NCBI GenBank assembly: GCA_001636495.1
Contig: KV440964.1
Coordinates: 3,054,666-3,118,665, forward strand
Reading direction: 5' to 3'
Length of the DNA: 64,000 bases
Source of the DNA: Sutcliffiella horikoshii
GTDB taxonomy: Bacteria; Bacillota; Bacilli; Bacillales; Bacillaceae_I
How positions within the stretch are numbered: position 1 is the first letter of the stretch; each line of letters starts with the position of its first letter. Below, in pieces: positions 10,513 through 48,506 of the stretch. Under the pieces are notes generated by a model. That model made no database searches and had not been told where the DNA came from. It saw only the letters and a list, made by a program, of their open reading frames with translations. The position numbers were made by a program, and so were the translations under genes.

Positions 10513-10642
10513 CTCTGTTCCTTTACGCAAATGGCTGCGCTTTCCGCGGGGCGACCCTTGAGCCTCCTCGTTTCACTGTGGGATCTCAAGATTGTCGCTA
10601 CTCCCCCGATGGAGTCTACGCCATTTGCTCCAATCCACAGCT
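10513..10642 (+). repeat. Structured repeat type A, copy A1
   Basis: One of four complete copies of a roughly 130-bp palindromic repeat. Outer stem CTGT/ACAG. Second stem GCAAATGGC (10527-10535) with GCCATTTGC (10620-10628), a perfect 9 bp. Third stem GCGAC..TTGAG with CTCAAG..GTCGC. The conserved core GAGCCTCCTC is followed by a degraded centre. No protein is expected from it. Confidence 0.85.
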
Positions 10643-10716
10643 GAAAAATATATGAAATACTTGGTGAAGACATTTTTGACGTGTTTTTTATGGATGGGAG
10701 ATCTTTTAAAACCAGG

Positions 10717-10900
10717 ATGAAGACCTTTCTATTTCGGATTTCACCTTAGAGAGGTCTTCATAACTCTGATGAAGACCTCTACTCTTCCGTTTTCTTCCCA
10801 GAGAGGTCTTCATAACTCTAATGAAGACCTCTACTCTTCCGTTCTCACGCCAGAGAGGTCTTCATATCCAGGATGATGATATTTTCTACTCGGTCGACTG
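10717..10900. repeat. 52-bp tandem palindromic array (about 3.5 units)
   Basis: The arm ATGAAGACCTCT recurs at 10717 (degenerate), 10769 and 10821, and its complement AGAGGTCTTCAT at 10750, 10802 and 10854; both recur with a period of exactly 52. Within the two best units the arms form a perfect 12-bp inverted repeat with a 7-base loop. The array lies between type A copy A1 and fragment A5. No CRISPR-like unique spacers: the linkers are also similar. Confidence 0.9.
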
Positions 10901-10964
10901 ACTGCCAAGGAAGGCTGCAGCAGCGATACTTCGCACACAGATAATGTGCTTTTTTAAGGAATTT

Positions 10965-10992
10965 ACGACATTTGCTCCAATCCACAGCTAGA
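10965..10992 (+). repeat. Fragment of structured repeat type A (A5)
   Basis: Only the 3' end of a type A unit is present (CATTTGCTCC...CACAGCTAG). It is joined to the same spacer sequence that links A to B in the two intact composites, so this is the remnant of an A-spacer-B unit whose third part is B1. Confidence 0.75.
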
Positions 10993-11050
10993 AACAAGTC
11001 ACCTCTGTTAGATAGTTTTTAGTTATCCTTTTGACAAGTGATATCACCTT

Positions 11051-11174
11051 GTTGATTGGAGTGGAAGGCGCGAAGACTCCTGTGGGAGGAAGGGACAGGG
11101 AAGACCCCGCAGGCATAGCCGAAGAGGCTTCCGGACCGCCCGCGGAAAGCGAAGCGCCTGGAACGGAAATCAAC
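11051..11174 (-). repeat. Structured repeat type B, copy B1
   Basis: About 124 bp. Outer stem GTTGATT (11051-11057) with AATCAAC (11168-11174). Second stem GGCGC/GCGCC. Third stem GGAAG/CTTCC. It shares the conserved core (GCCTC..CGGC, GCGGGGTCT, GGAGTCTTCG) with type A but has different stem sequences. Confidence 0.85.
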
Positions 11175-11187
11175 CGCTTTACGAAAA

Positions 11188-11234
11188 CAAAAAAACTGTA
11201 GCCAGACTCGATTTCCGTCGAGTTTGCCTACAGT
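11188..11234 (-). terminator. Terminator after ylbB
   Basis: Minus strand: long imperfect stem ACTGTAG..ACTCGA/TCGAGT..CTACAGT, followed by TTTTTTTG. A further small hairpin (CTGGAT/ATCCAG) lies just upstream at 11243-11262. Confidence 0.9.
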
Positions 11235-11274
11235 CTGAAACTGGATCCACTTGAATCCAGTCTTTCATTAGATG

Positions 11275-11688
11275 CTATTCTTCTGATATTTCACTAAGCG
11301 CTTCTCCAGCCTGTTCATCAGCGTAATCGCGGATCGCCAAATCTCCAAGTGATACAATCCCGATAAGTGCTCCATTCTCGACTACAGGCAACCTTCTTAT
11401 CTGATGCTCTGCCATCATATGGGCGGCTTCTTCTATAGAAGTTTCCGGCCCTATTGTAATTAAGTGATCACTCATTACATTGGTTACAGGGTTTGAACCA
11501 GGATGCTTTTCTGCAATTCCTCTTACCACTAGGTCTCTATCTGTAATCATTCCTAACAGCTCGCCGTCTTCCACAATTGGAATGGCTCCTACATCCAGGT
11601 CTTTCATTTTTGTCGCTACTTCAAAGACATTATCCAGTGGTGTGCAAAAATCTACATTCGTAGTCATGACTTCACGTACTGTTTGCAT
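11275..11688 (-). CDS. ylbB: CBS-domain protein YlbB
   Basis: A 137-aa cytoplasmic protein made of a CBS pair (Bateman module): the first CBS at about residues 8-60 (VREVMTTNVDFCTPLDNVF ... GMITDRDLVVR), the second at 70-125 (VTNVMSDHLITIGPETSI ... GIVSLGDLA). Such modules bind adenosyl ligands (AMP, ATP, SAM or c-di-AMP), but the ligand and output here are unknown. The open frame starts eight codons earlier; GGAGGTC before the ATG at 11688 decides the start. It stands in the usual ylbB place, but repeat-rich DNA separates it from ylbC. Confidence 0.9.
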   Translation of the reverse strand: MQTVREVMTTNVDFCTPLDNVFEVATKMKDLDVGAIPIVEDGELLGMITDRDLVVRGIAEKHPGSNPVTNVMSDHLITIGPETSIEEAAHMMAEHQIRRLPVVENGALIGIVSLGDLAIRDYADEQAGEALSEISEE

Positions 11689-11841
11689 AATTTGACCTCC
11701 ATTAAATTTCATACATAGCCGTACAGTAAATAGAGGAGGATAAGAGTATCCAATCTCTCACCCTTAGGTTCACCATTTTCTACAAAATCATGACTTTTTC
11801 CAAAAAACTTTCTATGACAAGGATAGTTATTCTATTCTTTA

Positions 11842-11870
11842 TTGAAAGTTATCCGCTTTCGTACTATTAT
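11842..11870 (+). promoter_or_regulatory. Sigma-A promoter of the YugN-family gene
   Basis: TTGAAA at 11842-11847, a 17-base spacer, TATTAT at 11865-11870. It is 55 bases before the start codon, with AAAGGAG in between. Confidence 0.8.
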
Positions 11871-11925
11871 TAACAGGGAGCATACTTATTTCGAGATGTA
11901 GAGATAGAAAAAGGAGTGTACATAC

Positions 11926-12282
11926 ATGAAAATTGAAAATACAGGTTTTGAAAATGAAAGAGTAGAATTATCCCGTTTAACGGACATTTTCGAGGATTTA
12001 GGATTTGACCTTGCTGGTCAGTGGGATTACGAGCGCGTAACATTCGATCGTAAATTTGAAACAAAAGAAGGTGTATTCTACCTTCGTGTTCAAGGATTTG
12101 CAGTAGAAGGCGATATTGGTGGCTCTCATGCAATGATCAACTTGCTTACACCACTTTTAGGAAAGCATTACTACCCACATGGTGTGGAATATGGTGAAGG
12201 TGAAACATTCCCATCGAATGTAGTCTCCACTTCTAAATCATTGTTAAAGCAAGCAAAAGAACGCATGGATGCTTTAAAATAA
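11926..12282 (+). CDS. YugN-like family protein
   Basis: A 118-aa acidic cytoplasmic protein of the YugN-like family (blocks LAGQWDYERVTFDRKF, EGVFYLRVQGFAVEGDIG, LGKHYYPHGVEYGE). No biochemical role is known to me. Its position between ylbB and the cta genes corresponds to ylbA in B. subtilis, but I did not compare the sequences. AAAGGAGTG lies ten bases before the ATG, and there is a good sigma-A promoter, so it is probably expressed well during growth as a single gene. Confidence 0.88.
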   Translation: MKIENTGFENERVELSRLTDIFEDLGFDLAGQWDYERVTFDRKFETKEGVFYLRVQGFAVEGDIGGSHAMINLLTPLLGKHYYPHGVEYGEGETFPSNVVSTSKSLLKQAKERMDALK

Positions 12283-12297
12283 TCGAAACAACGAAAG

Positions 12298-12336
12298 AAG
12301 GTGATTTGCTGGTGTAAACCTGCCGTCACCTTTTTA
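12298..12336 (+). terminator. Terminator after the YugN-family gene
   Basis: Stem AAGGTGA..TGC.GG with CC.GC..TCACCTT, followed by TTTTATTTT on the plus strand. Confidence 0.8.
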
Positions 12337-12343
12337 TTTTGGA

Positions 12344-12685
12344 TTATTTAACCCATAATCCATCCACATACACGTTCACTGCTTTTACTGTGTAACCAGT
12401 AATCACTTCAATTTCTTTTTTTATCAACTGCTGAAGTTCCTGGACCTTCATCGGGATACATTCGTTATATTCCACCTCAATAAAAATATCAATGGTAATG
12501 TTATTTTGAATATCAAATTGAATAACCGCATTATTCAGTTGATCCTTGCTGAGTATGGAATAGAATTTTCCCAACAGTCTTGGAGGAAGTGTTTTTATCC
12601 CACCGATATCAGAAACACAGATAGATATGACCGTCTGGAGCAACATATTACTCATCTCCGCCTGACTTTTCTTAAGCTCCAACAT
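12344..12685 (-). CDS. Asp23/Gls24-like protein
   Basis: A 113-aa protein whose C-terminal two-thirds resembles the alkaline-shock Asp23/Gls24 fold: a strand NNITIDIFIEVEYN, the helix KVQELQQLIKKEIEVITGY, and the terminal strand VKAVNVYVDGL. Related proteins are cytoplasmic, sometimes membrane-associated, and linked to envelope stress. Assignment is by pattern only. AAGGAGG lies eight bases before the ATG. It is transcribed convergently with the YugN-family gene. Confidence 0.75.
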   Translation of the reverse strand: MLELKKSQAEMSNMLLQTVISICVSDIGGIKTLPPRLLGKFYSILSKDQLNNAVIQFDIQNNITIDIFIEVEYNECIPMKVQELQQLIKKEIEVITGYTVKAVNVYVDGLWVK

Positions 12686-12900
12686 ACGATTTTCCTCCTT
12701 TGCATTTTAGGGGTTTTGTTATTTTATGTGTTCACACAAAATATGGTGCATGTATGATTTATGGTTCCCTATTCCCTTTCTTTTTCAATAAAAATCATAT
12801 TTATTACCGAGACACATATTTATTTTCTTACATACTGTTATTTCAATAAAATCCATACTATAATTAATATAGGAGTATGGTATTAGAAAGGAGACATCCA

Positions 12901-13959
12901 TTGTCAACGCTGTTTAGTATTCGAACACTTTTTATTTTAATTATTATTGCGACGATAGCCGTAATTGCTTTTTTCATATTGCCTGTTTCCATTCCCATTA
13001 TCATCGCATTGATTACAGCTTTATTTCTTGAACCTCTTGTGAGGCTGATTCAAGAACGAGCCAAACTGAAAAGGAACCTTTCTGTTTTCATCGTATTTTT
13101 GATGTTTGTCACCAGCATTGGAATTATGGGCTACTTTCTGACAACTAAAGTAATAACTGAAGCAATTAACTTGGTAGAAAATGCACCATCCTACATAAAT
13201 GAAGTGAATCGGGTGTGGCAGGATTTTCAGTCCGATATGAATAATGCCTCGGAGGATCTTCCACCTGAGTTTGTCAGTGAAATAAGCCTGCAAGTAGACA
13301 AATTGCTTTATGATTTGAGAATTTATTTAACAGACCTTTTCAATATCCAGAATGTGAAGAGTATTTTCACCAATATACCTAATTATCTGGTCAGCTTCAT
13401 TGTCTACCTGATTGCATTGTTCCTTTTTCTTCTTGATATGCCTCGTTTGAAGGCTGGTCTCTATTCACACCTAAAAGAAGAAACGGCTGATAAGGTCAAT
13501 TTTATGAGTTCAAGATTATCTTATGTGATTTTCGGATTTTTTAAAGCACAGTTTTTAGTGAGCATCATCATATTTTTCATTACACTGATTGGGTTATTAT
13601 TTATTGCCCCTGAGGTAGCATTGATCATGGCCTTCATCATCTGGGTCATCGATTTCATTCCGATTATCGGTTCCATCGTTATTTTGGGACCTTGGGCATT
13701 GTTCCATCTTATTACAGGTGATATCGGTCTCGGTACACAGTTGGCTGTCCTCGCTGTTGTGCTATTGATCATCAGAAGGACGGTCGAACCGAAAGTGATG
13801 GGTAGCCATATCGGCCTATCCCCGTTAGCGACCCTGATTGCCATGTATTTAGGCTTAAAGTTGATTGGTATCTTGGGATTCATCGTTGGTCCTCTCTTGC
13901 TGATAGCATTCAACTCAGCCCGTGAAGCAGGCATTATAAAAATGAATTTTAAGATATAA
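12901..13959 (+). CDS. AI-2E/PerM-family integral membrane protein
   Basis: A 352-aa polytopic membrane protein with about eight hydrophobic segments and the family arrangement: two or three N-terminal spans, a long soluble segment (about 85-150), then a C-terminal bundle with the conserved FIIWVIDFIPIIGSIVILGP and the motif EPKVMGSHIGLSPL. Members include B. subtilis YtvI and AI-2E exporters; substrate is unknown. The TTG at 12901 is chosen because AAAGGAG lies just before it; the ATG at 12877 has no binding site. A TATAAT box (12859-12864) lies upstream with a poor -35. It ends in a strong terminator, then a repeat composite begins. Confidence 0.85.
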   Translation: MSTLFSIRTLFILIIIATIAVIAFFILPVSIPIIIALITALFLEPLVRLIQERAKLKRNLSVFIVFLMFVTSIGIMGYFLTTKVITEAINLVENAPSYINEVNRVWQDFQSDMNNASEDLPPEFVSEISLQVDKLLYDLRIYLTDLFNIQNVKSIFTNIPNYLVSFIVYLIALFLFLLDMPRLKAGLYSHLKEETADKVNFMSSRLSYVIFGFFKAQFLVSIIIFFITLIGLLFIAPEVALIMAFIIWVIDFIPIIGSIVILGPWALFHLITGDIGLGTQLAVLAVVLLIIRRTVEPKVMGSHIGLSPLATLIAMYLGLKLIGILGFIVGPLLLIAFNSAREAGIIKMNFKI

Positions 13960-13963
13960 TGAC

Positions 13964-14002
13964 AAAAAAGGTGTTTGGACCAAAGTCCAAACACCTTTTT
14001 TA
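13964..14002. terminator. Terminator after the PerM-family gene
   Basis: Stem AAAAAAGGTGTTTGGAC/GTCCAAACACCTTTTTT with a 4-base loop; symmetrical and strong. Confidence 0.95.
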
Positions 14003-14027
14003 AAAGATAAGAAAGTATAATATTCTG

Positions 14028-14150
14028 TTGAATTCCGTTCCAGGCGCTTCGCTTTCCAGTGGGCGGTCCGGAAGCCTCCTCGGCAAGCCTGCGGGGTCTC
14101 CCTTGTCCCTTCCTCCCACAGGAGTCTTCGCGCCTTCCACTCCAATCAAC
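14028..14150 (+). repeat. Structured repeat type B, copy B2
   Basis: Outer stem GTTGA.TT/AATCAAC, second stem GGCGC/GCGCC, conserved core GCCTCCTCGGC and GCCTGCGGGGTCTC. The third stem has one mismatch here compared with B1 and B3. Confidence 0.85.
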
Positions 14151-14214
14151 ATGGTGGTTTCATTCACCTAAAGGATAAATAACTAAAACTATCTTAATGA
14201 GGTGAATGGTTTCT

Positions 14215-14346
14215 AGCTGTGGATTGGAGCAAATAGCGTAGACTCCAACGGGGGAGTAGCGACAATCTTGAGACCCCGCAGGCGAACGCCGAGGAGGCTC
14301 AAGGTCGCCCCGTGGAAAGCGCAGCTATTTGCGGAAAGGAACAGCG
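14215..14346 (-). repeat. Structured repeat type A, copy A2
   Basis: Reverse-oriented type A. Outer stem GCTGT (14216-14220) with ACAGC (14341-14345). The second stem GCAAATAGC/GCTATTTGC carries a compensatory change relative to A1 (C-G to T-A at the seventh pair). The third stem GCGAC..TTGAG is intact. Confidence 0.85.
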
Positions 14347-14399
14347 GCATAGACCCCAACAAACAATGAAGTGCTTTTTATAAAAGGATCTTGTTTTTC

Positions 14400-14867
14400 T
14401 TATAACCCGAGGATGGCTTTGAAAACGGAAGTTGTTTCCCCACCCTGATAGATAACGTATAACAGCAAATAAACGGCAACTCCTGTGATGGCTGTCGTAA
14501 ACCATACAATACTTGTGATTGGACCAAGCTTTCTGTGTCTATCTAGCCTATTCTTATAACCTGTCCATAATGTAATGATTCCCATAACAGCCCCTACAGT
14601 CGCAAGAGTTATGTGGAATAATAGAAAAATGGTATAGTACAATTTAATATCATCAGGTCCACCAAAGCTTGTATTGCCGACAAAAATGGTTCTTGAAGCG
14701 TAAATGATAAAAAAGATAATAGCAAAGATTGCTGCTAAAAACATTACTTTTTTATGTGCTTCAATCTTTCGTTTTATTATTAGATACCAGCCTATAGCAA
14801 CGAAAATTGCGCTCAATACGATAAAAAACGTACTGATTGTTGGCATTATCGGAATTGAGTAATCCAT
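14400..14867 (-). CDS. ctaM: DUF420 protein, cytochrome oxidase assembly factor CtaM (YozB-like)
   Basis: A 155-aa membrane protein with four to five spans and the DUF420 pattern, including histidines in RKIEAHKKVMFLAA, LLFHITLA and DRHRKLG, which are conserved in the family. DUF420 proteins (CtaM in Staphylococcus aureus, YozB in B. subtilis) are needed to assemble heme-copper oxidases, with evidence for a role in the CuA site of caa3. It follows ctaG by 40 bases and probably shares its promoter. In B. subtilis yozB is not next to ctaG, so this linkage supports the oxidase role. The ctaM-ctaG pair is flanked by inverted repeat composites. Confidence 0.85.
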   Translation of the reverse strand: MDYSIPIMPTISTFFIVLSAIFVAIGWYLIIKRKIEAHKKVMFLAAIFAIIFFIIYASRTIFVGNTSFGGPDDIKLYYTIFLLFHITLATVGAVMGIITLWTGYKNRLDRHRKLGPITSIVWFTTAITGVAVYLLLYVIYQGGETTSVFKAILGL

Positions 14868-14907
14868 TTCTTTCTCCCCTCGTTCTAACTTCTTGCTATC
14901 TTTTCAA

Positions 14908-15816
14908 TCACTCTGCTACTTTTGGGTGCATTGCCTTGTTAAGATCGATTTCATCTTTTTCACGCTCGCGTCTTGCCCAGCCAAAGAAAACATATGCAAG
15001 AATGCTTCCATACATAATTTCCTGTATTATTTTCATGATGACTCCGCCAAGCTGCTGATCTTCCACCAGTGGCAATGCATTAAAATATTCTGGACCTCCA
15101 AGATCAAGGCCTGCCAAAGTTCCTGCCGGTACACATAATTCGAGTGCTGCAAGCCAAGCAGTCATCTCTGAATAAGTTGCATATAAAGGCTGGTCTGCGA
15201 AAATGATCAGGGCACACGCAGGTGTTAGCAGCATGCCATCGGCCATAATATAGCCGATTTTTTTTATTCCAGATAACCGTTGCTCCTCTGGAAGCGGGTT
15301 AACTAGTGGCCACCACATGATGAAAGCTCCTACAAACATAACGGATGTGTATGCTGTATGATAAACCATGTCCACCTTTATCGTATCAAATACAACGGGA
15401 ATATGATAAAGAGAGAAAAGCACATTGAACACCAATAATGCAATCAGTGGTTTAGAGATGAATCTGAATACCGGCTTAACAACCGGAAGATTGATGACTT
15501 TTCTTAATACCCATGCAGGCATTCCCATCAATAAGATAGGCGGTATGACCAGGTATAGTATGGCCATTTGCGTCATATGAGCACTAAGCATCAAGTGGCT
15601 TAGCAGATCCACCGGTGATCCTTTTACCAAGTAGAACAAAATCATACTGCTTAGAAAAAACGCACGTTGCTTATTGGATATCTCTTCAGAATCCTTAAAG
15701 CGGTTGCGACCTTTTCCGGTAATATAAAAATAAAGAATGGTTATAAGTATCGTTGTTACCAATAGATATGGACTCCATAACGCTTGAAATCCAAACATAT
15801 CCAAGTTGCCAATCAT
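14908..15816 (-). CDS. ctaG: Cytochrome c oxidase assembly factor CtaG
   Basis: A 302-aa protein of the caa3-type CtaG family, with about seven transmembrane segments. Family features include SHLMLSAHMTQMAILYLVIPP (metal-binding histidines in SHLMLSAHM), PVVFDTIKVD, and GYIMADGMLLTPACALIIF. It acts in the membrane in building the CuB centre of caa3 oxidase. It is unrelated to Cox11-type CtaG of proteobacteria. GAGGTGAC precedes the ATG, and a sigma-A type promoter lies 55-85 bases upstream. The gene is separated from ctaF by a repeat composite, so it has its own transcript. Confidence 0.95.
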   Translation of the reverse strand: MIGNLDMFGFQALWSPYLLVTTILITILYFYITGKGRNRFKDSEEISNKQRAFFLSSMILFYLVKGSPVDLLSHLMLSAHMTQMAILYLVIPPILLMGMPAWVLRKVINLPVVKPVFRFISKPLIALLVFNVLFSLYHIPVVFDTIKVDMVYHTAYTSVMFVGAFIMWWPLVNPLPEEQRLSGIKKIGYIMADGMLLTPACALIIFADQPLYATYSEMTAWLAALELCVPAGTLAGLDLGGPEYFNALPLVEDQQLGGVIMKIIQEIMYGSILAYVFFGWARREREKDEIDLNKAMHPKVAE

Positions 15817-15871
15817 TATGCTGTCACCTCAATTTTTTGAAAGCTTATACACTTTCCCTTTACATACAAAC

Positions 15872-15901
15872 ATTATACTATATAAGGATAAGCCCATTCA
15901 A
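15872..15901 (-). promoter_or_regulatory. Promoter of ctaG-ctaM
   Basis: Read on the minus strand: TTGAAT (15901-15896), an 18-base spacer, TATAAT (15877-15872). The -10 box is 56 bases before the ctaG start. Confidence 0.75.
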
Positions 15902-16045
15902 TGTAGTGGGAAAAAGGAAGGTTACCTAAACAGTAAGTGTCATGATTTAGACAAGGTTCCTTTTTTTGTGTTTAGTTAGATTACCCAACCAAAACCGCCC
16001 GGTCTTTATAAAGCTGGATAAATACTTACTTTGTCAGGTCTATAG

Positions 16046-16178
16046 CCGCTGTTCCTTTCCACAAATGGCTTCGCTTTCCACGGGGCGACCTTGAGCCTCC
16101 TCGGCGATGCCTGCGGGGTCTCAAGATTGTCGCTACTCCCCCGTAGGAGTCTTCGCCATTTGCTCCAATCCACAGCTA
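16046..16178 (+). repeat. Structured repeat type A, copy A3
   Basis: Outer stem GCTGT (16048-16052) with ACAGC (16172-16176). Second stem CAAATGGC/GCCATTTG. Third stem GCGAC..TTGAG/CTCAAG..GTCGC. Inner hairpin GGC-GAT-GCC followed by TGCGGGG. This is close to the consensus of type A. Confidence 0.87.
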
Positions 16179-16237
16179 GAAATCAGTTACCATATTTAGT
16201 AAGTTTTAGTAACCCTTTAGGTGAATGGTATTACCTT

Positions 16238-16359
16238 GTTGATTGTAGGGGAAGGCGCGAAGACTCCTGCGGGAGGAAGGGACAGGAAAGACCCCGCAAC
16301 GAAGTGAGGAGGCTTTCGGACCGCCCGCGGAAAGCGAAGCGCCTGGAACGGAAATCAAC
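16238..16359 (-). repeat. Structured repeat type B, copy B3
   Basis: Outer stem GTTGATT (from 16238) with AATCAAC (16353-16359). Second stem GGCGC/GCGCC. Third stem GAAAG/CTTTC, compared with GGAAG/CTTCC in B1: both arms changed together. Confidence 0.87.
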
Positions 16360-16394
16360 AGAATATAATACTTTCTAATCTTTTAAACAAAGCA

Positions 16395-16424
16395 AAAAGG
16401 CAGCCGTTTGAGGCTGCCTTTTCC
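16395..16424 (-). terminator. Terminator of the cta operon after ctaF
   Basis: Minus strand: AAGGCAGCC/GGCTGCCTT with a 6-base loop, followed by TTTGC. It closes the ctaCDEF transcript. Confidence 0.9.
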
Positions 16425-16432
16425 ATTTGATA

Positions 16433-16765
16433 TTACCACCAAATGATAGTCGTGAATGCTAAGATTGTAATCAATCCAACTGCTAAACCAGAGTATAAGA
16501 ACAATGCTGGTGTTTCATGACCTTTATGGTTCATGTGCATGAAATAGTATAGTTGGAAGATACATTGTACCACTGCCATCAGAATGATGAACGGTACGAT
16601 AAAGTACTTGGACATTTCTGCACCGACCGCAAAGAATGCAAGTAGGGTAAGAAAGATCATCAAGGTGAAGGAAACCACCTGATATTTCATTTCTTCCTTG
16701 TTCTTCTTACGACGGAATTCTAAATCCACTTTTGGGTTACCTGTATTTGATTGAGTATTTGCCAT
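16433..16765 (-). CDS. ctaF: Cytochrome c oxidase subunit IV (CtaF/CoxD)
   Basis: A 110-aa subunit IVB-type protein of caa3 oxidase with a hydrophilic basic N-terminus (residues 1-27) and three transmembrane helices. The middle one contains QCIFQLYYFMHMNHKGHE, typical of CoxD/CyoD-like proteins. The small subunit stabilises the core complex. It starts six bases after the ctaE stop with GGTGTGATGAC upstream, and a terminator follows. Confidence 0.95.
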   Translation of the reverse strand: MANTQSNTGNPKVDLEFRRKKNKEEMKYQVVSFTLMIFLTLLAFFAVGAEMSKYFIVPFIILMAVVQCIFQLYYFMHMNHKGHETPALFLYSGLAVGLITILAFTTIIWW

Positions 16766-16771
16766 CAGTCA

Positions 16772-17401
16772 TCACACCAATCCCATTAAATATACTACAG
16801 TAAAGATGAATAACCATACAACGTCGATAAAGTGCCAGTATAGTGATGCTACATAGAACTTAGGAGCATTGTACAGATCCAATCCACGTCTCATGTTACG
16901 GATCAATAGAGTACCGATCCATAATAGTCCAAAGAATACGTGGGCACCGTGAGTACCAACTAATACATAGAATGCAGAACCAAATGCACTACTAGTAATC
17001 GTATGGCCTAAATGGATATAATGAACGAACTCATAAATCTCTAAGATCAAGAAAGACAATCCTAGAAGCCATGTGATTCCCATCCATAACTGCATTTTTT
17101 TGAAGTTAAAGTTTTTCATGTGGTACATTGCGTACACACTTGTTAGAGAACTAACCAAAAGAATCATGGTAGCTGCAAATACAAGCGGCAATTCGAAAAG
17201 TTCCTTCGGACCAGGTCCACTGATCTGATCAAGGGTGTTTTTTCCACTGAGAGCTAAATAAGTAGCAAACAATGAAGCAAATAGCACAGTCTCTCCGCCA
17301 AGGAACAGCCAGAAACCTAAAAACTTGTTTTTGCCTTCAAGGGTCGCCTTTTCAGGCGAAGCTGGGAAAGTTTCTGCTGTGAATTTTTCTTCTGTATGCA
17401 T
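16772..17401 (-). CDS. ctaE: Cytochrome c oxidase subunit III (CtaE)
   Basis: A 209-aa five-span subunit III of the caa3 oxidase. Characteristic blocks are KFLGFWLFLGGETVLFASLF at the first helix, GTHGAHVFFGLLWI, and the C-terminal YWHFIDVVWLFIFTVVYL. It supports the core subunit around the D-pathway entrance. Its ATG overlaps the TAA of ctaD by one base (TAATG), which gives translational coupling. Confidence 0.96.
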   Translation of the reverse strand: MHTEEKFTAETFPASPEKATLEGKNKFLGFWLFLGGETVLFASLFATYLALSGKNTLDQISGPGPKELFELPLVFAATMILLVSSLTSVYAMYHMKNFNFKKMQLWMGITWLLGLSFLILEIYEFVHYIHLGHTITSSAFGSAFYVLVGTHGAHVFFGLLWIGTLLIRNMRRGLDLYNAPKFYVASLYWHFIDVVWLFIFTVVYLMGLV

Positions 17402-41930: not shown

Positions 41931-41972
41931 GAAAAAGAGCAGGTTCCTTTTTACAGGTACCTGCTCTTTTTA
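41931..41972. terminator. Bidirectional terminator of speA and SR1
   Basis: Stem AAAAAGAGCAGGT/ACCTGCTCTTTTT with a loop of about 13 bases. On the minus strand it is the 3' end of the SR1 transcript. Confidence 0.88.
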
Positions 41973-41988
41973 CATTCAATCTATAATT

Positions 41989-42114
41989 CTAGGCTAAATC
42001 TTCGCTTTTTTCAGAGCACTGACAATCTGCACATTTTGCATAGTAAGTCGTAACTTTTTCATCCTCAAAGTGATCTACCGCGCTGTTACATGTTTGACAA
42101 ATGATTGTACCCAT
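41989..42114 (-). CDS. sr1P: GapA-binding peptide SR1P
   Basis: A 41-aa peptide starting MGTIICQTCNSAVDHFEDEK, which matches the remembered SR1P pattern: CxxC near the N-terminus, HFEDEKVT, and a second cysteine group CADCQC. SR1P binds glyceraldehyde-3-phosphate dehydrogenase GapA and aids its interaction with RNase J1 in B. subtilis. The open frame extends 58 codons upstream, but those lie across the promoter and operators. AAAGAGG lies nine bases before the ATG at 42114. Confidence 0.93.
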   Translation of the reverse strand: MGTIICQTCNSAVDHFEDEKVTTYYAKCADCQCSEKSEDLA

Positions 42115-42166
42115 ACCCTTCAACCTCTTTCCCAAAAGAAATTTTTTTGCAAAGCCGCCTTTAAAT

Positions 42167-42180
42167 TGAAAGCGCTTTAT
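42167..42180 (+). promoter_or_regulatory. cre site (CcpA operator) in SR1
   Basis: TGAAAGCGCTTTAT matches TGWAANCGNTNWCA at 12 of 14 positions. It lies about 6-19 bases downstream of the SR1 start point, where bound CcpA would block early elongation. Confidence 0.8.
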
Positions 42181-42192
42181 GTTGTTAAATAC

Positions 42193-42221
42193 ATCATAAA
42201 CCCTCAAATGTGTTATGTCAA
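42193..42221 (-). promoter_or_regulatory. Sigma-A promoter of SR1
   Basis: Minus strand: TTGACA (42221-42216), a 17-base spacer, TATGAT (42198-42193). Consensus -35, near-consensus -10. Confidence 0.9.
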
Positions 42222-42241: not shown

Positions 42242-42277
42242 TTTAAATTTATAGATTTTAATATGATTACTAGATAG

Positions 42278-42314
42278 ATAAAGGCCACCGTCCGGATAAC
42301 TGGTACGATGGCCT
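42278..42314 (-). terminator. Terminator after the DUF3055 gene
   Basis: Minus strand: imperfect stem GGCCATCG/CGGTGGCC, extended by GTACC/GGAC, then TTTATC. Confidence 0.65.
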
Positions 42315-42335
42315 CTGAGAATTCTAAATTATTTT

Positions 42336-42635
42336 TTACTCATACTGTTCTTGAAAAGGACTTGTCGGGATGGCTTCTGTAAAGAATTCTGCAAGATCTT
42401 CTGCTTGTTCTTGTGAATCAATTCGGAATACATGCTGAAGGTGGTTTAAGTCAGTAATGTCTTTAGGGTCGAGGAGAGTGGAACGGCCAGTTTGCATACA
42501 GATGACGAGAGGCTTACCAAAAAACATATTCGTGTACACAATACCAAAATCATATCTAACATCTTTTGTCGTAAAGCCAACAAATCGAACAGGGACATTC
42601 TCATTGTTATCGTAAAGCTTGTCAAATAAGTTCAT
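42336..42635 (-). CDS. DUF3055-family protein
   Basis: A 99-aa cytoplasmic protein that I associate with DUF3055 (SAV0927-like): MNLFDKLYDNNENVPVRFVG, FGIVYTNMFFGKPLVICMQT and an acidic C-terminal helix. No function is known. The open frame starts 23 codons earlier, but AAGGAGG before the ATG at 42635 is decisive. It is divergent from the DUF1885 gene and lies upstream of SR1 on the same strand, separated by a terminator. Confidence 0.85.
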   Translation of the reverse strand: MNLFDKLYDNNENVPVRFVGFTTKDVRYDFGIVYTNMFFGKPLVICMQTGRSTLLDPKDITDLNHLQHVFRIDSQEQAEDLAEFFTEAIPTSPFQEQYE

Positions 42636-42721
42636 AAGGTACCTCCTTTTTATTTTTTGGTTATTCAGAATATTATTATAACTTAGAAATGAGCTGATTT
42701 GCAAGAATTTTCACTTAGTGA

Positions 42722-42751
42722 TTGTCAGTTGATTTATCCTAATGCTAGAAT
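42722..42751 (+). promoter_or_regulatory. Sigma-A promoter of the DUF1885 gene
   Basis: TTGTCA at 42722-42727, an 18-base spacer, TAGAAT at 42746-42751; about 40 bases before the start codon. Confidence 0.7.
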
Positions 42752-42790
42752 AGTATTAGATGAATTTGTCATATTTAGGAGTGGAATCTT

Positions 42791-43216
42791 ATGGCCAGTA
42801 GCGCTTACATTAACCTAGTCTCCAAATCAAAAGAGAAAACGCTTACCGTAGAAGATGTAAAGGAATTATTAAACTACTATAAAGAAATAACCTCTAAAAC
42901 AGGAAAACAGTTGGGGTGGGAATATAGCGAAGCAGCATTTCCTTATGAAATTAAAGAAAAGCCTGAGGGAAAAGGACAGTGGTTCTATCTAAAGGGAATA
43001 GAAGATCGGTATAAGATGATTCTAATCGGGGTAGGTACCCAACCGGAGCTCTTAGAAGGGACAGAGTCTCTTTCATACATACAAGTCACTCTTCATGACC
43101 AGAGCACTCATGGCGACAAAGGAAAAGCGAATGAGATCTGTAAATTCCTTGCCAAGAAACTTGAAGCAGAATTAAAGCTTTTTACAGGCAGTATTATGTA
43201 TTATTATAAGCGCTAA
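42791..43216 (+). CDS. DUF1885-family protein
   Basis: A 141-aa soluble protein recalled as DUF1885: SSAYINLVSKSKEKTLTVED at the N-terminus, an alpha/beta middle (YKMILIGVGTQPE) and a C-terminal helix plus strand ending GSIMYYYKR. The fold may resemble peptidyl-prolyl isomerase domains, but no activity is assigned. TTAGGAGTGG precedes the ATG and a sigma-A promoter is present. It is a single gene, convergent with the deacetylase lipoprotein. Confidence 0.82.
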   Translation: MASSAYINLVSKSKEKTLTVEDVKELLNYYKEITSKTGKQLGWEYSEAAFPYEIKEKPEGKGQWFYLKGIEDRYKMILIGVGTQPELLEGTESLSYIQVTLHDQSTHGDKGKANEICKFLAKKLEAELKLFTGSIMYYYKR

Positions 43217-43223
43217 CTAAAAC

Positions 43224-43260
43224 AAAAAGCCCCTATCTAAAGATAGTGGGCTTTACTTTT
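43224..43260. terminator. Bidirectional terminator
   Basis: Stem AAAGCCC..ATCT/AGAT..GGGCTTT, flanked by A-rich and T-rich tracts (ACTTTT on the right). Confidence 0.85.
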
Positions 43261-44197
43261 ACTCTGTCTCAGATTCTTGCTCATCTGCACCAATAAGATC
43301 CGGGTCCAATATGTCAAAGTTTTTTTCCTGCAGTCCTTTAACAATATCGGCTAATGCGTCTTTCGTCCACTCTCTATCATGCATAAGAAGATTGCTACCA
43401 CTGCTTAGATATTCCGTATTTACCATAATATCTGCAAGTGATTCAGCATCCATATAATCTGTCTCCCAATCATATCCATACGTCCAATTCATGAGAATCA
43501 TGCCTTCTTGTTTGACAAGTTCTTTGGCATAATCCGTATTGGTGCCAAATGGAGCTCGAAAGAATCGTGGTCGTTCCCCTGTGATTTCCTCTACGCGGTC
43601 ACTTAGCGAGACGATTTCTTCATACTGTTCCTCTTCTGTTAACTGTCTTAAGGATTTATGAGTCATCGTATGATTTCCAATTGGAAATCCCATATCGTAA
43701 ATTTCCTTAAGGGTGTTCCGTTCTTTTTCGGTTTCAAGAAAGTGGCCATTAACAAAAAATATGGCTTTTACGTTTAATTCTTTAAGAATAGTAGCCATTT
43801 CCAATGCATATCTATCTGGAGCATCATCAATTGTCAATAATACAACATCAGGGTCTGCATCACTGATCGGTTCTAATGTCCAATTACTCTCGTTAACTAT
43901 GTACTGGGGAGATTGAGACTCACTATCCACACTATTTTTTTCTTCCTCATCAATAGTGTCCGTACTTTCTTCACTTTCCCCTATATCAGTAGGTTTATCT
44001 TCTACAGGTTCCTCTTCTTCTGCTGGTCCTTCTTCTGCTGAAGCAGGCACCTCTTCTTCTACCGCATTTTCGGTATATTGATTCTCTTCTGTTTGACTAT
44101 CTACTGCATCGGATCCTTGCTCTTCAGTTACTTGTCCATTATCCCCGCAAGCTACAAGGAGGAGCAATAACAACGCAGATAGTACCCATTTTTTCAT
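43259..44197 (-). CDS. Polysaccharide deacetylase lipoprotein
   Basis: A 312-aa exported enzyme. The signal peptide MKKWVLSALLLLLLVACG ends in the lipobox VACG. It is followed by a strongly acidic linker (about 25-100, rich in Glu, Asp and Ser) and a NodB-type deacetylase domain. The metal site is visible: the Asp pair in LLTIDDAP and the HxxxH in GNHTMTHKSL; RFFRAPFG gives the third motif. It probably deacetylates peptidoglycan or another wall polymer at the membrane surface. The open frame starts nine codons earlier; GGAGGAAAG fits the ATG at 44197. Confidence 0.92.
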   Translation of the reverse strand: MKKWVLSALLLLLLVACGDNGQVTEEQGSDAVDSQTEENQYTENAVEEEVPASAEEGPAEEEEPVEDKPTDIGESEESTDTIDEEEKNSVDSESQSPQYIVNESNWTLEPISDADPDVVLLTIDDAPDRYALEMATILKELNVKAIFFVNGHFLETEKERNTLKEIYDMGFPIGNHTMTHKSLRQLTEEEQYEEIVSLSDRVEEITGERPRFFRAPFGTNTDYAKELVKQEGMILMNWTYGYDWETDYMDAESLADIMVNTEYLSSGSNLLMHDREWTKDALADIVKGLQEKNFDILDPDLIGADEQESETE

Positions 44198-44327
44198 AGT
44201 CTTTCCTCCATATGTAAGGTTCATCTTTAATCATACTAGCAATCAGTATATGAAGGCAATGTTTTTCCATTATTTTAAGTTTAGCCGAAGTGGCAATTCT
44301 TCCATAATAGGATTTTCTTCCCTACAG

Positions 44328-44573
44328 CTAACTGAAGACCAAATAGTAAAATAGACTCTGGAAACTAAAATAAAAAATAAAACTAATGGCCGTAGTCAAT
44401 GCAGCTTGCTTTTTTTTATGAATAATCGACATGGCAAGTGTATAGCAAAGATAGATAAAAATACCCAAGAGAATTACTTTTGCCTGCATCTTGTCCCTGG
44501 CAGAAAACCATTCAATCAGACTATATGTCCCCCAAAAGATATTTTGTATCAAAAACACCACATAATTTTTCAT
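44328..44573 (-). CDS. Small hypothetical membrane protein
   Basis: An 81-aa protein with an N-terminal amphipathic or membrane segment, a basic loop (SARDKMQAK), and two further spans (VILLGIFIYLCYTLAM and TTAISFIFYFSFQSLFYYLV). No family is recognised. AAGGGG lies ten bases before the ATG. It is transcribed toward the deacetylase but is separated from it by about 130 bases. Confidence 0.65.
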   Translation of the reverse strand: MKNYVVFLIQNIFWGTYSLIEWFSARDKMQAKVILLGIFIYLCYTLAMSIIHKKKQAALTTAISFIFYFSFQSLFYYLVFS

Positions 44574-44811
44574 AAAAGCAGCCCCTTACTGCATATTTCT
44601 ATTTATGTATCCGTTTTATCGCAAAAGAAAACCTCTGTAATAAATATGCCAGGAAGGAGCATTCTATTTTTCAATTTTGTAACAATTCGATGACAAGCAC
44701 AGCTAACATAATTTTTAGTGGTAGAATAGCACCAAATAGTAAAACAGATTATCTATAAATGCCTCCAAGTCCGTGTGATATATATGTTGTAAACAGAAAG
44801 TGAGGATTGCC

Positions 44812-45203
44812 ATGATTAGAGGCTCTGTCATTTTTTTCACTTTGTCTTTTTTCATTTTATCTTCTTGTCAAGAGAACCAAACGATTACTCACATTCAATT
44901 TCCTGATGATGTCCATACACTGGTGTTTTTTTCTGATGAATCCAACTTACAGGATGAACATACATATTATGATGCTATCATTGATTTACGAAATACATTT
45001 CCAGATGAAGTTGCTAACTTGAAAGTAGTTCATTCTGAAAATGAAAAAATTTTATATAAACAGTTTAACGTCAAATCGACCCTTCCTTGATTGTCGTACA
45101 TCATAACGAAGTCGTGACACAGGTGGAAGGCTCCAAGCAAAAAGAGGATATTGTCGTTTCCATTGAACAAGCTTTGAACGATGCAGGTGATTCCACTTAT
45201 TAA
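44812..45203 (+). pseudogene. Thioredoxin-like lipoprotein gene with a frameshift
   Basis: The frame starts at ATG 44812 (GAGG six bases upstream) with a lipoprotein signal MIRGSVIFFTLSFFILSSC. It continues as an alpha/beta domain lacking CxxC, and hits TGA at 45088. Shifting the frame at about 45081 restores the C-terminal half of a thioredoxin fold: cis-proline motif TPSLIVVHHNEVVTQVEG, then a helix (EDIVVSIEQALND) and stop at 45201-45203. One missing C in TCGACCCTT explains it. It is either a true disrupted gene or a sequencing error in a short C run. Confidence 0.8.
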
Positions 45204-45269
45204 TATGTGGGTGCCTGCATTTTTCTTTATTTTACGAAGGATCTGGCAAACCGCCCGGTGCTATATCCA

Positions 45270-45400
45270 CGCTGCTCCTTTCCGCAAATGACTTCGCTTT
45301 CCACGGGGCGACCTTGAGCCTCCTCGGCATTGCCTGCGGGGTCTCAAGATTGTCGCTACCCCCTCGTAGGAGTCTTCGCCATTTGCTCCAATCCGCAGCT
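45270..45400 (+). repeat. Structured repeat type A, copy A4
   Basis: Outer stem GCTGC (45271-45275) with GCAGC (45395-45399); other A copies have GCTGT/ACAGC, so both partners changed together. Second stem GCAAATGAC/GCCATTTGC has one mismatch. Third stem intact. It has no B partner. It shares AAACCGCCCGGT upstream with copy A3. Confidence 0.87.
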
Positions 45401-45493
45401 AGAATTCTTTTAGAAAGTTAAGTTAACTGTTATCTCAATCCCTTTACGTAGATAGATTTTAATCTGCAATGGAAATCATTTTATACTTTTCAA

Positions 45494-45527
45494 CAAAAAA
45501 ACCTCCGAAGTATTCGGAGGTTTTTTA
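45494..45527. terminator. Terminator of the pdh operon
   Basis: Stem AAAAAAACCTCCGAA/TTCGGAGGTTTTTT with a 3-base loop; it can act on both strands. Confidence 0.95.
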
Positions 45528-45536
45528 GTCAATCAT

Positions 45537-46949
45537 TTATTTTACGATATGAATTGGGCTACCCATTGCTACTTCTGCAGCTTCCATTGTGATTTCTCCC
45601 AATGTTGGATGCGCGTGAATTGTCATAGCGATATCTTCCGCTGTCATACCAGCTTCGATAGCAAGACCAAGTTCAGCAATCATGTCAGAAGCGCTAGAAC
45701 CGGCAATTTGAGCACCGATGATCAATCCGTCTTCTTTACGAGTTACAAGCTTCAAGAATCCGTCTGTTGCGTTTAAAGCCAATGCGCGGCCGTTCGCAGC
45801 AAATGGGAACTTAGCAGCTGTCACTTCAATTCCTTCTTCTTTTGCTTGAGCTTCCGTGTATCCTACAGAAGCAAGTTCTGGCTCAGAGAATACTACTGCA
45901 GGAATACCTAAGTAGTCAATCTCAGAAGGTTCACCAGCAATCGCTTCTGCAGCAATCTTACCTTCGTAAGAAGCTTTATGTGCAAGTGGAGGTCCCTCTA
46001 CGATATCACCAATAGCATAGATGTTAGAAACGCTAGTGCGGCACTGCTTGTCAATTTTGACAACGCCACGATCTGTCATTTCCACACCAACTTGCTCAAG
46101 GCCAAGCTCATCTGTGTTCGGACGGCGGCCTACAGTAACTAATACATAATCAGCGTCGATTGTTTGCTCTTCGCCTTTTACTTCAATCGTTACTTTCACG
46201 CCATCTTCTGTTTCTTCTACACCTTTAGCCATTGCTTTTGTGAAGATTTCTACGTTACCTTTTTTCTTTAGGTTACGTTTTACAAGTGAGCTCATTTGCT
46301 TTTCAAAACCAGCCAAGATCTCATCTGCAGCTTCCACAATAACAACTTCTGTTCCAAAGTTTGCATAAGCTGTACCTAGCTCAGTACCGATGTAACCTCC
46401 ACCGATAACAACTAGTTTCTTTGGAATATCTTTAAGTGCCAAAGCGCCTGTAGAATCAAGAACACGTTTGGAATACTTGAAAGTCGGGATTTCGATTGGG
46501 CGAGAACCTGTTGCAATGATACAGTTGTTGAACTTGTATGTTTGCGCAGAGTTATCATCCATGATACGAACTGTGTTACCGTCTACGAAGTATGCTTCTC
46601 CTGAAACGATGTCTACTTTATTCCCCTTAAGCAGACCTTCTACTCCGCCAGTCAACTTCTTAACTACTCCAGCTTTCCATTCTTGAACCTTAGAGAAATC
46701 AACTGTTACGTTCTCAGCAGTGATTCCCATATCCTCAGAATGTTTTGCTGTTTCAAAGCGGTGACCTGCAGAAATTAACGCTTTGGAAGGAATACAGCCA
46801 ACATTTAAACATACTCCACCAAGAGTGTTCTTTTCTACGATTGTTACCTTTTGTCCCAGTTGAGCCGCGCGGATTGCAGCAACATATCCGCCAGGGCCCG
46901 AACCGATGACAAGCGTATCTACATCAATTGCGAAATCTCCTACTACCAT
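45537..46949 (-). CDS. pdhD: Dihydrolipoamide dehydrogenase (PdhD, E3)
   Basis: The FAD enzyme that reoxidises lipoamide of the pyruvate and other 2-oxoacid dehydrogenase complexes with NAD. The 470-aa chain has the FAD-binding [17 protein letters not shown], the redox disulfide [15 protein letters not shown] (Cys near 47 and 52), the NAD-binding [14 protein letters not shown] near 183, and the C-terminal active-site [14 protein letters not shown] precedes the ATG and the gene starts three bases after the pdhC stop. It is last in the operon and is followed by a strong terminator. Confidence 0.98.
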
Positions 46950-46952
46950 TTA

Positions 46953-48329
46953 TTAACCCTCCATTAACAATAATTGTGGATCGTTCAATAGACGCTTGAT
47001 ATGGTTAAGCGCATTTTGAGCAGTAGCGCCATCAATCATACGATGGTCAAAGCTTAGTGATAAGGCAAGAACTGGAGCCACTACAATTTCTCCGTCTTTC
47101 ACTACAGGTTTTTCTGCGATACGGCCGATACCTAGAATCGCAACCTCTGGATGGTTAATAACCGGTGTGAACCATTGTCCACCAGCAGAACCGATGTTTG
47201 TAATAGTGCAAGATGCACCTTTCATCTCATCAGACGCCAATTTACCGTCACGCGCTTTTCCAGCAAGTTCGTTGATCTCGTTGGAAATGGAGAAGATAGA
47301 CTTTCTGTCCGCATCTTTCACAACAGGAACTAATAAGCCCTTCTCTGTATCAGCAGCGATTCCGATGTTGTAATAGTGCTTGTGAACAATCTCATCTGTT
47401 GCATCATCTAGAGATGTATTAAGTACAGGGTACTCACGTAAAGCAGATGTAAGTGCTTTAACTACGTATGGTAAGAATGTTAACTTAATACCTTTGTCTG
47501 CTGCAACTGATTTGAATTTCTTACGGTGAGCAACAAGTTCTGTCACATCGATTTCGTCCATCAATGTTACGTGAGGCGCAGTGTGCTTGGAGTTAACCAT
47601 CGCTTTTGCAATCGCACGACGCATACCACTCATTTTCTCACGAGTCTCAGGGTATTGACCAGCAGGAATTGCTTGTTTTTCTTGTTTCGCTTCCGCTTTT
47701 GTTTCTTCTTTAGCTGCAGGAGCCGCTTCAGTAGTAGTTTCTTCTGCTTTAGCGCCGCCACCGCTTAAGAATGCATCGATGTCACTCTTAAGTACGCGTC
47801 CGTTGTCGCCGGAACCAGCTACTTGACGGATTTCAACGCCTTTTTCGCGAGCATATTTACGAACGGATGGCATCGCGATGATGCGTTTGTTTGGATCTAC
47901 TTCCACTTGCTCTTGAGCGCCTGCGCCTGTTTCAGCTTTTGGCTCTTCTTTTGGAGCTTCTTCTTTTTTCACATCTTGACCAGCTTCAGCAGTTGCTTGA
48001 ACTTGTCCTTCAGTTTTTTCATCAGATTTCGTTTCAGCCTTTTCATCATCGCTGCCGTGGTCGTCACCTTTGAACTTAAGGTCTTCATAACCTGGAGCGT
48101 CAAGTGTGATGATTGTTTGTCCAACAGTACAAACAGTACCTTCTTCCACTTTCAATTCCGTTACTTTCCCTTTTACAGGAGATGGAATTTCTACGACTGC
48201 TTTATCGTTTTGTACTTCACAAAGTACATCATCTTCTTCGATTTCGTCACCTGGTTTTACGAACCATTTTACGATTTCACCTTCATGGATACCTTCACCG
48301 ATATCTGGCAGTTTAAATTGGAATGACAC
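46953..48329 (-). CDS. pdhC: Pyruvate dehydrogenase E2, dihydrolipoamide acetyltransferase (PdhC)
   Basis: The core of the pyruvate dehydrogenase complex. The 458-aa chain has one lipoyl domain (lysine in [10 protein letters not shown], near 43), a long Ala/Glu/Lys/Thr linker (85-130), the peripheral-subunit-binding domain ([13 protein letters not shown]), a second linker, and the catalytic domain with [12 protein letters not shown] near the C-terminus. The open frame begins with TTG three codons earlier, but AGGAGG is directly against that TTG. The GTG at 48329 has the right spacing and gives the family start. A structured repeat lies between it and pdhB. Confidence 0.96.
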
Positions 48330-48377
48330 AGTTTTCAACCTCCTATGATAGATAGCTTTATAAGGGTTTTGTTAACT

Positions 48378-48506
48378 TCTGTAGATTTTCGTTCCAGGTG
48401 TTCGCTTTCCGCGGGACGGTGTTTGAGCCTCCTCACTTCGTTGCGGGGTCTCAACCAACCGTTATCCCCCCGCTGGAGTCTCACACCTTACACTCCAATC
48501 TACAGA
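48378..48506 (+). repeat. Structured repeat type B-like, copy B4, inside the pdh operon
   Basis: A divergent copy with a perfect 10-bp outer stem TCTGTAGATT (48378-48387) and AATCTACAGA (48497-48506). Second stem AGGTGT/ACACCT; third stem ACGG..TTGAG/CTCAA..CCGT. The stems differ from A and B but keep pairing, and the core (CGCTTTCCGCGGG, GAGCCTCCTC, GCGGGGTCTCAA, GGAGTCT) is kept. It lies between pdhB and pdhC, so it would be part of the mRNA. Confidence 0.87.

Follow-up and report, generated by a model that had tools for sequence, protein, structure and literature searches.

Short intergenic repeats that fold are known from several bacterial groups, and those closest to the repeats studied here are BOX in Streptococcus pneumoniae, ERIC (or IRU) in enterobacteria, and two repeat groups of bacilli. 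The accessible part of the ERIC description (Delihas 2007, PMC2229807) gives a 127-bp, intergenic, MITE-like element, as is the case here, with 7-bp terminal repeats and 5'-TA-3' termini and an orientation that is said to influence its effect. The repeats bcr1-bcr3 of the Bacillus cereus group are likewise MITE-like, intergenic and partly transcribed, as far as the available text of their reports goes (PMC3446304, PMC3733652); bcr1 is specific to that group, as its paper is titled, and is set apart from our repeats by description, plasmid matches to the latter coming only from Priestia, Peribacillus, and Bacillus badius. Bhal-1 of Bacillus halodurans, a stem-loop family with 36 copies (Cozzuto 2008, PMC2267715), is listed in the portion of that paper at hand with 74 nt against ~125 nt for the core described below, and in this description-only comparison it may correspond to a part of that core.

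Copies and composites in the window

The window, by which we mean the whole 64,000-nucleotide stretch of Sutcliffiella DNA that was analyzed, holds eight complete hairpins of ~125 nt and one fragment, which fall into two related types, A and B. Complete cores were placed by cmsearch with the models R1 (A) and R2 (B), and the fragment by nhmmer. The original prediction had counted nine copies or fragments, and all are present (eight complete and one 3' fragment), although they are not all independent, since six of them pair up into three composites, each of an A and a B in convergent orientation (10957-11177, 14018-14350, and 16042-16368), with spacers of 47-52 nt. A1 (10516..10642, plus strand; R1, 132.9 bits, also found by nhmmer) begins a long composite as its 5' half; inside this composite lies module X, a tandem array of 2.9 copies of a 52-nt unit at 10716..10866 on the plus strand, delimited by TRF and by alignment with two other loci (L037 and L045). 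The module is closed by A5, a 3' fragment of an A core (10957..10995, plus; nhmmer, 24.5 bits), and B1 (11050..11175, minus; R2, 128.4 bits) is convergent with A1/A5. Composite 14018-14350 joins B2 (14026..14151, plus; R2, 131.5 bits) to A2 (14215..14343, minus; R1, 146.7 bits), and composite 16042-16368 joins A3 (16050..16177, plus; R1, 146.1 bits) to B3 (16237..16360, minus; R2, 140.3 bits). Two cores stand singly: A4 (45273..45400, plus; R1, 141.6 bits) and B4 (48380..48504, plus; R2, 114.6 bits, R1, 99.7 bits), a member of a divergent B subfamily.

The unit of module X is itself an inverted repeat (AGGTCTTCAT..ATGAAGACCT). The module is an optional insert that can separate A from B, and a relative of it occurs in each of the two aligned copies from the genome sample. 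Its longest stop-free stretches span 57, 77, and 78 codons in the three copies and are alike between two of them, the window copy not being one of these. Composite 16042-16368 is located between a COX4_pro gene and ctaG, where the outer end of B3 comes after the terminator T-tract of the gene before it. The motif TGCGGGGTCT occurs seven times in the window (at most one mismatch) against 1.67 expected, a number reached in 0 of 100 shuffles.

Abundance, spread and genomic placement

From 67 complete copies in 1,120 kb, a count that supersedes a first estimate of 20 in 320 kb, we extrapolate ~254 complete copies in the host, a density that is possibly slightly high because some of the "arbitrary" stretches (e.g. 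at 1700000) were chosen with pattern hits already known. The covariance-model search beyond the window that had been proposed with the original prediction gave family members in 150 of 199 genomes taken from the order, and in 2 of 199 genomes of a phylum-wide draw, one of which is the host. Six of 72,556 plasmid records match, all from Priestia, Peribacillus, or Bacillus badius. None of 50,697 phage records does, and a phage origin was rejected on these grounds.

The first reading of the sequence could name no described family, and our searches agree. Rfam returned nothing at the gathering threshold over the whole window; at E values up to 1 across 10400-16500 the best match over a core was tsr24, with 19.6 bits against a cut-off of 50, and across 11 loci there was no family match, the single hit being an unrelated L31 leader. 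The family was not found in the literature searched, whose coverage leaves out most subscription papers, and a literature search by core sequence letters gave nothing relevant as judged from titles and abstract openings.

Insertions are depleted between divergent genes, where 6 of 107 classed insertions lie compared with 168 of 758 element-free regions (Fisher p=1.5e-5). In tandem regions, single copies run antisense in 45 cases and sense in 12 (p=1.3e-5). The minus strand, which is the strand transcribed under this bias, folds more stably in most copies (the plus strand does so in 15 of 47 A and 16 of 52 B copies) and is somewhat favored by the consensus energies too; folding energy therefore favors the minus strand, but not decisively, and was set aside as a means of choosing between strands.

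Covariation of the stems

That the stems covary was borne out well beyond the nine window copies. Both sides have changed in 18 of 40 pairs of the A stems (46 distinct rows) and in 17 of 38 pairs of the B stems (52 rows), and the two-sided cells number 115 for A against a shuffle mean of 33.7 and 100 for B against 22.4, values that none of 500 shuffles reached. Covariation thus holds in the genome sample by these shuffle counts, and it holds in the order-wide alignment as well; its loss in a larger alignment, which was to count against the original prediction, was not observed.

One-sided changes are rare and strand-symmetric, with 35 G·T and 47 A·C among 3,735 cells (p=0.22), a count that excludes one fixed U·G pair, with which G·T would make up ~3.5% of cells. 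This pair is found in 45 of 46 A rows, 52 of 52 B rows, and 61 of 62 rows order-wide. As a control, the stems of 29 tRNAs contain G·U in 50 of 631 cells (bracketed pairs only, so that their zero A·C is uninformative), and G·T in the element is thus ~8x rarer. In the order-wide alignment the outer three helices carry no one-sided change in any cell, and G·T and A·C number 35 and 20 (p=0.058) in an alignment fitted to the plus-strand structure. Inside the fold, some blocks of sequence hardly vary among copies of the host sample, and they recur across the order and within different terminal repeats.

Because A·C and G·T are equally common among one-sided changes, and because G·T is rarer than G·U in tRNA, these data favor constraint or correction at the DNA level, acting on an inverted repeat. 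The proposal of selection on a folded RNA is thus unsupported by this test, although the orientation bias of single copies leaves room for an RNA role. The fixed U·G pair and the order-wide surplus of G·T over A·C also point toward RNA.

Ends, target duplications and empty sites

The elements are short and without coding capacity. Taking as evidence of duplication an exact 8-bp direct repeat beside ends matching in at least 6 of 12 positions, we found such repeats beside GGCTCTGTTAAA-type ends in 7 of 49 single A elements, compared with a mean of 0.92 and a maximum of 4 in 200 flank swaps. In all seven, the distance to the core model is 17-18 nt on the upstream side and 38-40 nt on the downstream side. 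Some single A elements, at the least, are therefore MITEs with terminal inverted repeats and 8-bp duplications, features whose discovery was to count against the original prediction. The signal is absent from single B elements (2 of 42 against a control of 0.79), and none of the composites examined has convincing target duplications.

Element-free sites in relatives also bear on mobility. Locus L088 carries an A copy, with TCATTCAA on both sides by eye, that is absent from L084, L085, and L086 (flank identity 90-92%). For composites 14018-14350 and 16042-16368, collinear sites that lack the element are present in relatives, that of the latter in L082. The mobility first suggested is thus supported, by duplications and empty sites for single A elements and by empty sites for composites, while single B elements and composites show no convincing duplication signal.

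The ends vary. Those of type i enclose an element of ~183-185 bp, and type iii was not found as a matched pair elsewhere among the loci examined. In genome G106 the core sits within GGCTGTTTTCG-like ends, with exact duplications at two loci (L227 and L229), and at L176 within TGTCTCTC ends that match in 10 of 12 positions and have an 8-bp duplication; GGCTGTTTTCG-like ends also bound core-less elements in the host. The core is thus an exchangeable module that sits in different terminal repeats across genomes.

Three transposase families, ISL3, IS1595, and IS6-type (PF13610), were searched for in the host; none was found, and they were dropped as candidates encoded there. A GGCTCT-like tip is common to ISL3 elements within the order, as are 8-bp repeats. 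When sampled ISL3 ends were compared with element ends, the best agreement was 9/16 for type i and 11/16 for type ii, 10 of 30 loci having an end pair; the similarity is limited to the tip in the sampled ISL3 elements, whose ends thus do not support an ISL3-derived MITE.

Discussion

Of the first interpretation, a dispersed, mobile, covarying hairpin family without a name has stood, and selection on folded RNA was not supported by the count of one-sided changes. We suggest that the repeats are probably a modular, non-autonomous, foldback (MITE-like) family of DNA elements of the Bacillales. The unit would be an imperfect palindrome of ~125 nt, the core, between terminal inverted repeats, which a transposase acting in trans, perhaps ISL3-like, would cut and paste with formation of 8-bp target duplications. 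Types A and B occur singly or joined head to head into an A->spacer<-B composite of ~330 nt, at times with the tandem module, and B elements and composites may have moved by the same route as single A. Insertions are kept in intergenic DNA, often beside transcription terminators and seldom between divergent genes. The arms would stay matched at the DNA level as the two serve as inverted copies of a single recognized site (a hairpin, a cruciform, or a paired protein site), or else through template switching that corrects palindromes, and transcript folding would not be the reason, or not the main one. A more specific version, which we hold only tentatively, is that the core is a DNA module with an inheritance of its own, which MITEs of unrelated ends have captured repeatedly across the Bacillales. 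It would persist as a double-stranded palindrome since the extruded hairpin (cruciform) itself is recognized by a protein of the host or of transposition, for example to aim insertion at replication forks or terminators.

The core could instead be a functional structured RNA (a 3'-UTR element, a processing site, or a regulatory RNA), borne by MITEs and maintained because the transcript must fold, and strong order-wide covariation, the antisense bias, the somewhat more stable fold of the strand transcribed under it, and the nearly invariant blocks would all suit such a role; about half of the B. cereus bcr repeats are transcribed, often in UTRs, according to the accessible text of one report (PMC3446304). 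We consider this unlikely given the strand-symmetric one-sided changes, the scarcity of G·T, and the lack of an Rfam match at threshold, and given that the B core in composites is opposite in orientation to single B. Less likely again are inert remnants whose arms are matched solely by template switching during replication, with no selection on the core. Arm-to-arm correction is expected to leave what is seen here, two-sided Watson-Crick changes that have few intermediates and do not differ between the strands. But correction accounts for matching arms and not for conserved sequence, and here core blocks vary hardly at all in the host sample, reappear order-wide and within different terminal repeats, and include one asymmetric pair that is fixed.

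REP/REPIN-type palindromes, moved as single-stranded hairpins by a RAYT (Y1 transposase), also come as intergenic hairpins in convergent pairs with hundreds of copies, and the host has one Y1_Tnp match. The 3.3 kb around this sole gene contain no A or B copy, with GGGTCAGACCC-type palindromes upstream instead, and RAYT linkage was rejected accordingly. Some single A elements have terminal repeats and 8-bp duplications and enzymes of the IS200/IS605 type are not known to make such duplications. We regard this origin as very improbable.

The family is abundant, conserved, and non-coding, is present in the majority of the genomes sampled from its order, and matches no Rfam family; it may account for some short hypothetical ORFs. 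It suggests that strong covariation alone is no proof of a functional RNA, and a count of wobble on each strand may tell palindromes matched at the DNA level from transcripts that fold, which would be useful to RNA-discovery screens. With one conserved core in different terminal repeats, the idea that MITEs carry modules which aid their spread also becomes testable.

Compared with ERIC as given in the accessible text (PMC2229807), the present family differs in its 8-bp duplications, longer exchangeable ends, and composites. BOX, in the available part of its description (Croucher 2011, PMC3049150), is likewise modular, its size varying by an optional internal repeat (boxB, to be compared with module X), and shares strong folding, terminal repeats, target duplications, and insertions that are mostly not recent. 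It is described there in streptococci whereas the present family is order-wide, and the likeness to boxA-boxB(n)-boxC is one of architecture. Unlike BOX as presented in that text, the core here is a 125-nt palindrome of two types, each of which also stands alone.

Architecture and distribution of the family

Profile searches confirmed the nine repeat places of the original prediction: eight copies are complete, and one (A5) is a 3' fragment. Covariance models from a wider set, R1 (A-type) and R2 (B-type), each gave eight matches in the window, the identical eight copies; the training sets included window copies. Each model also recovers members of the other type (E-values 2.4e-16 to 6.7e-28), which makes A and B branches of a single family. 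A 95-aa ORF at window positions 16091-16378 (+) overlaps the A3/B3 composite, and such frames may yield small hypothetical proteins. The CtaG protein encoded nearby has its nearest relative, at 98% identity, in Sutcliffiella horikoshii, which places the host in Sutcliffiella. Also present in the window are a ylbH leader at 4515-4643 (-; 105.3 bits) and an SR1 sRNA match at 41933-42190 (-) scoring 45.9 bits, just above the Rfam threshold of 45 bits.

A total of 1.68 Mb of the host genome yielded 167 matches, of which 146 are complete cores (A, 77; B, 69). The matches fall into 133 groups: A stands alone in 50 and B in 44, another 22 are composites, i.e., convergent A→spacer←B pairs, and the remainder are fragments or nested. 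Composite spacers in our first sample are mostly 47-53 nt, with others of 75, 82 or 340. Largely arbitrary host stretches totalling 1,120 kb contain 67 complete cores, or about 254 per chromosome when scaled up. An internal module containing a tandem ~52-nt unit, each unit itself an inverted repeat, is common to A1-X-A5-B1 in the window and to two further copies. Convergent pairs also occur in the family- and order-wide locus sets (e.g., L178, L208, L211 and L217), and loci of Halobacillus and Oceanobacillus contain weakly matching ones (25-36 bits).

When the host and its relatives were searched with R2, the family proved widespread, with matches in 18/18 genomes of the GTDB family and in 150/199 genomes (76/97 genera) sampled from the order, at most 17 matches being scored per genome in the latter. 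Across the phylum 2/199 genomes matched, namely the host and another member of its class, and two other genomes of the order in that listing gave no match; searches over more than 40 genomes used stricter filters, by which weak matches are lost. Plasmid copies were found in 6 of 72,556 records (Priestia megaterium, Peribacillus and Bacillus badius), and none in the phage records searched.

Covariation at the DNA or RNA level

The predicted covariation of the stems is borne out. Changes on both sides affect 18/40 pairs (115 cells) in A and 17/38 pairs (100 cells) in B, compared with 33.7 ± 4.6 and 22.4 ± 3.6 cells in shuffles, and neither count was reached by any of 500 shuffles; sliding the partners by 1-3 columns reduced the cells to 2-19 (A) and 9-36 (B). 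An order-wide alignment of 62 distinct rows, fitted to the B structure, gave 26/38 pairs and 197 cells (shuffles, 42.8 ± 4.8). The number of further pair types was not significant within the host (reached by 45/500 shuffles for A and 79/500 for B) and was significant order-wide (0/500).

If the core were kept by selection on a folded transcript of one strand, one-sided G·U would be expected to be common on that strand and A·C rare. Some support for such selection comes from the minus strand, which is somewhat more stable (consensus energies, minus vs plus, -82.05 vs -78.50 and -79.74 vs -74.97 kcal/mol; plus more stable in only 15/47 A and 16/52 B) and, in tandem regions, is transcribed more often than the plus strand. 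However, G·T is not commoner than A·C in the host alignments (35 vs 47 cells, p = 0.22, beside 3,511 Watson-Crick and 142 other cells), a count that omits pairs in which G·T is the most frequent form, namely one fixed U·G per alignment (45/46 and 52/52 rows), with which G·T would reach about 3.5% of cells. For comparison, G·U makes up 7.9% of cells (50, beside 581 Watson-Crick) in the 29 distinct tRNAs of the loci, their absent A·C being no control because only bracketed pairs were counted. Order-wide, one-sided cells number 35 G·T vs 20 A·C (p = 0.058); a single two-pair helix accounts for 24 of these G·T, and the outer three helices have zero one-sided changes in any cell. We consider transcript selection unlikely. 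Of the folded RNA or DNA form originally predicted, the few, symmetric one-sided changes favor DNA and speak mainly against RNA; we read the covariation as constraint or correction mainly at the DNA level, with an RNA role possible. As a whole, the repeats are probably a modular foldback family of DNA elements resembling miniature inverted-repeat transposable elements (MITEs).

Mobility and exchange of ends

Exact 8-bp direct repeats with ends (GGCTCTGTTAAA) matching in at least 6/12 positions, all at the same offsets, accompany 7/49 single A copies, whereas 200 flank-swap trials gave 0.92 on average and never more than 4. Single B copies gave 2/42 (control 0.79), and composites no convincing duplication case. 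A MITE with terminal repeats and target duplications, the alternative named at the outset, is thus upheld for some single A copies but not for single B copies or composites. Two pairs of GGCTCTGTTAAA-type ends lie 183 bp apart at 731403 and 1706606 in the genome-wide pattern list for the host.

Related loci differ by insertion. An A copy in L088, flanked on both sides by TCATTCAA in our reading, is missing from L084, L085 and L086, and a B copy common to L084 and L085 is absent from L086, L087 and L088. Collinear sites that lack the window composite at 14018-14350 exist in L082, L084, L085, L086, L087 and L088 (alignments for three). The composite at 16042-16368 is missing from L082 and L083, yet in L084 to L088 the same terminator is followed by whole or partial related composites, implying that copies were lost or that one site was used repeatedly.

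Among 51 loci from other genomes (L176-L182 and L194-L237), four combine an exact 8-bp repeat with ends that match in at least 6/12 positions, a result without shuffle control: L216 (host type, GCCTCTGTTAAA, 9/12, 185 bp), L227 and L229 of genome G106 (GGCTGTTTTCG-like, 7/12, 232-235 bp) and L176 (TGTCTCTC type, 10/12, 237 bp), a locus that we place in genome G009, of the same genus. Decayed GGCTGTTTTCG-like ends were seen by eye in 11 of 13 other G106 copies, L225 and L230 being without. One core therefore occurs within three kinds of element ends, of which the third is represented by one locus. G106-type ends also bound core-less elements in the host, of which 2/7 printed have exact duplications in our reading (TCAGTCAA at 3150604 and ATATAGAA at 2900676). 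One end of GGCTCTTTTCGTAAACTTTG type lies at window positions 8318-8341 (-), and elsewhere the host has core-less elements, about 184 bp long, with GGCTCTTTTCGTAAACTTTG-type ends.

Genomic place and orientation

Taking the longest ORFs as stand-ins for genes, we classed 107 insertions, leaving out 10 without context, one inside an ORF and groups of other architecture. Only 6/107 lie between divergent genes, compared with 168/758 element-free regions (p = 1.5e-5), and within tandem regions 45 single copies lie antisense to the genes vs 12 sense (p = 1.3e-5), both p-values being optimistic because copies are related. The A strand of composites is antisense in 16 vs 5, and B therefore sense.

A terminator-like structure just upstream, reading towards the core, precedes 14/23 composite B and 8/24 single A copies in the first sample, and more rarely composite A (2/23) and single B (6/29), compared with 3% of random windows (mostly coding); composite A has one on the other strand in 8/23. 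A terminator-like CAGACTGTAGGCAAACTCGA..TCGAG hairpin lies upstream of B1 (window 11207-11237, -), and similar sequence precedes a B core at host 2744830 and the four copies of another genome, G118 (L233-L236); it is perhaps another shuffled module.

Candidate mobilisers and related elements

The host was searched for ISL3, IS1595, IS240 (IS6) and Y1_Tnp transposases. The first three had no match; a single RAYT-like Y1 gene (locus L031, 1318-2064; C1:823775) has GGGTCAGACCC/GGGTCTGACCC palindromes upstream and no A/B repeats in its 3.3-kb locus. ISL3 genes are present in 43/101 genomes sampled from the order, and in 10/30 ISL3 loci a pair of ends with 8-bp repeats was recovered, 9 of these 10 with GGCTCT-like tips (two of the repeats being homopolymers). 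From tip and duplication length, our guess is an ISL3-like mobiliser. The ends of these 10 ISL3 loci match the first and second kinds of element ends (types i and ii) at no more than 9/16 and 11/16, respectively.

The insertion sequences of B. halodurans have been surveyed. Our literature search, in which subscription literature is poorly covered, found no description of this A/B hairpin family, and the word Bacillus is absent from the main text of a 2024 review of prokaryotic MITEs (PMC10969869). Bhal-1 of B. halodurans may be a partial relative (PMC2267715). The tandem internal module is similar in design to boxB of pneumococcal BOX (PMC3049150).
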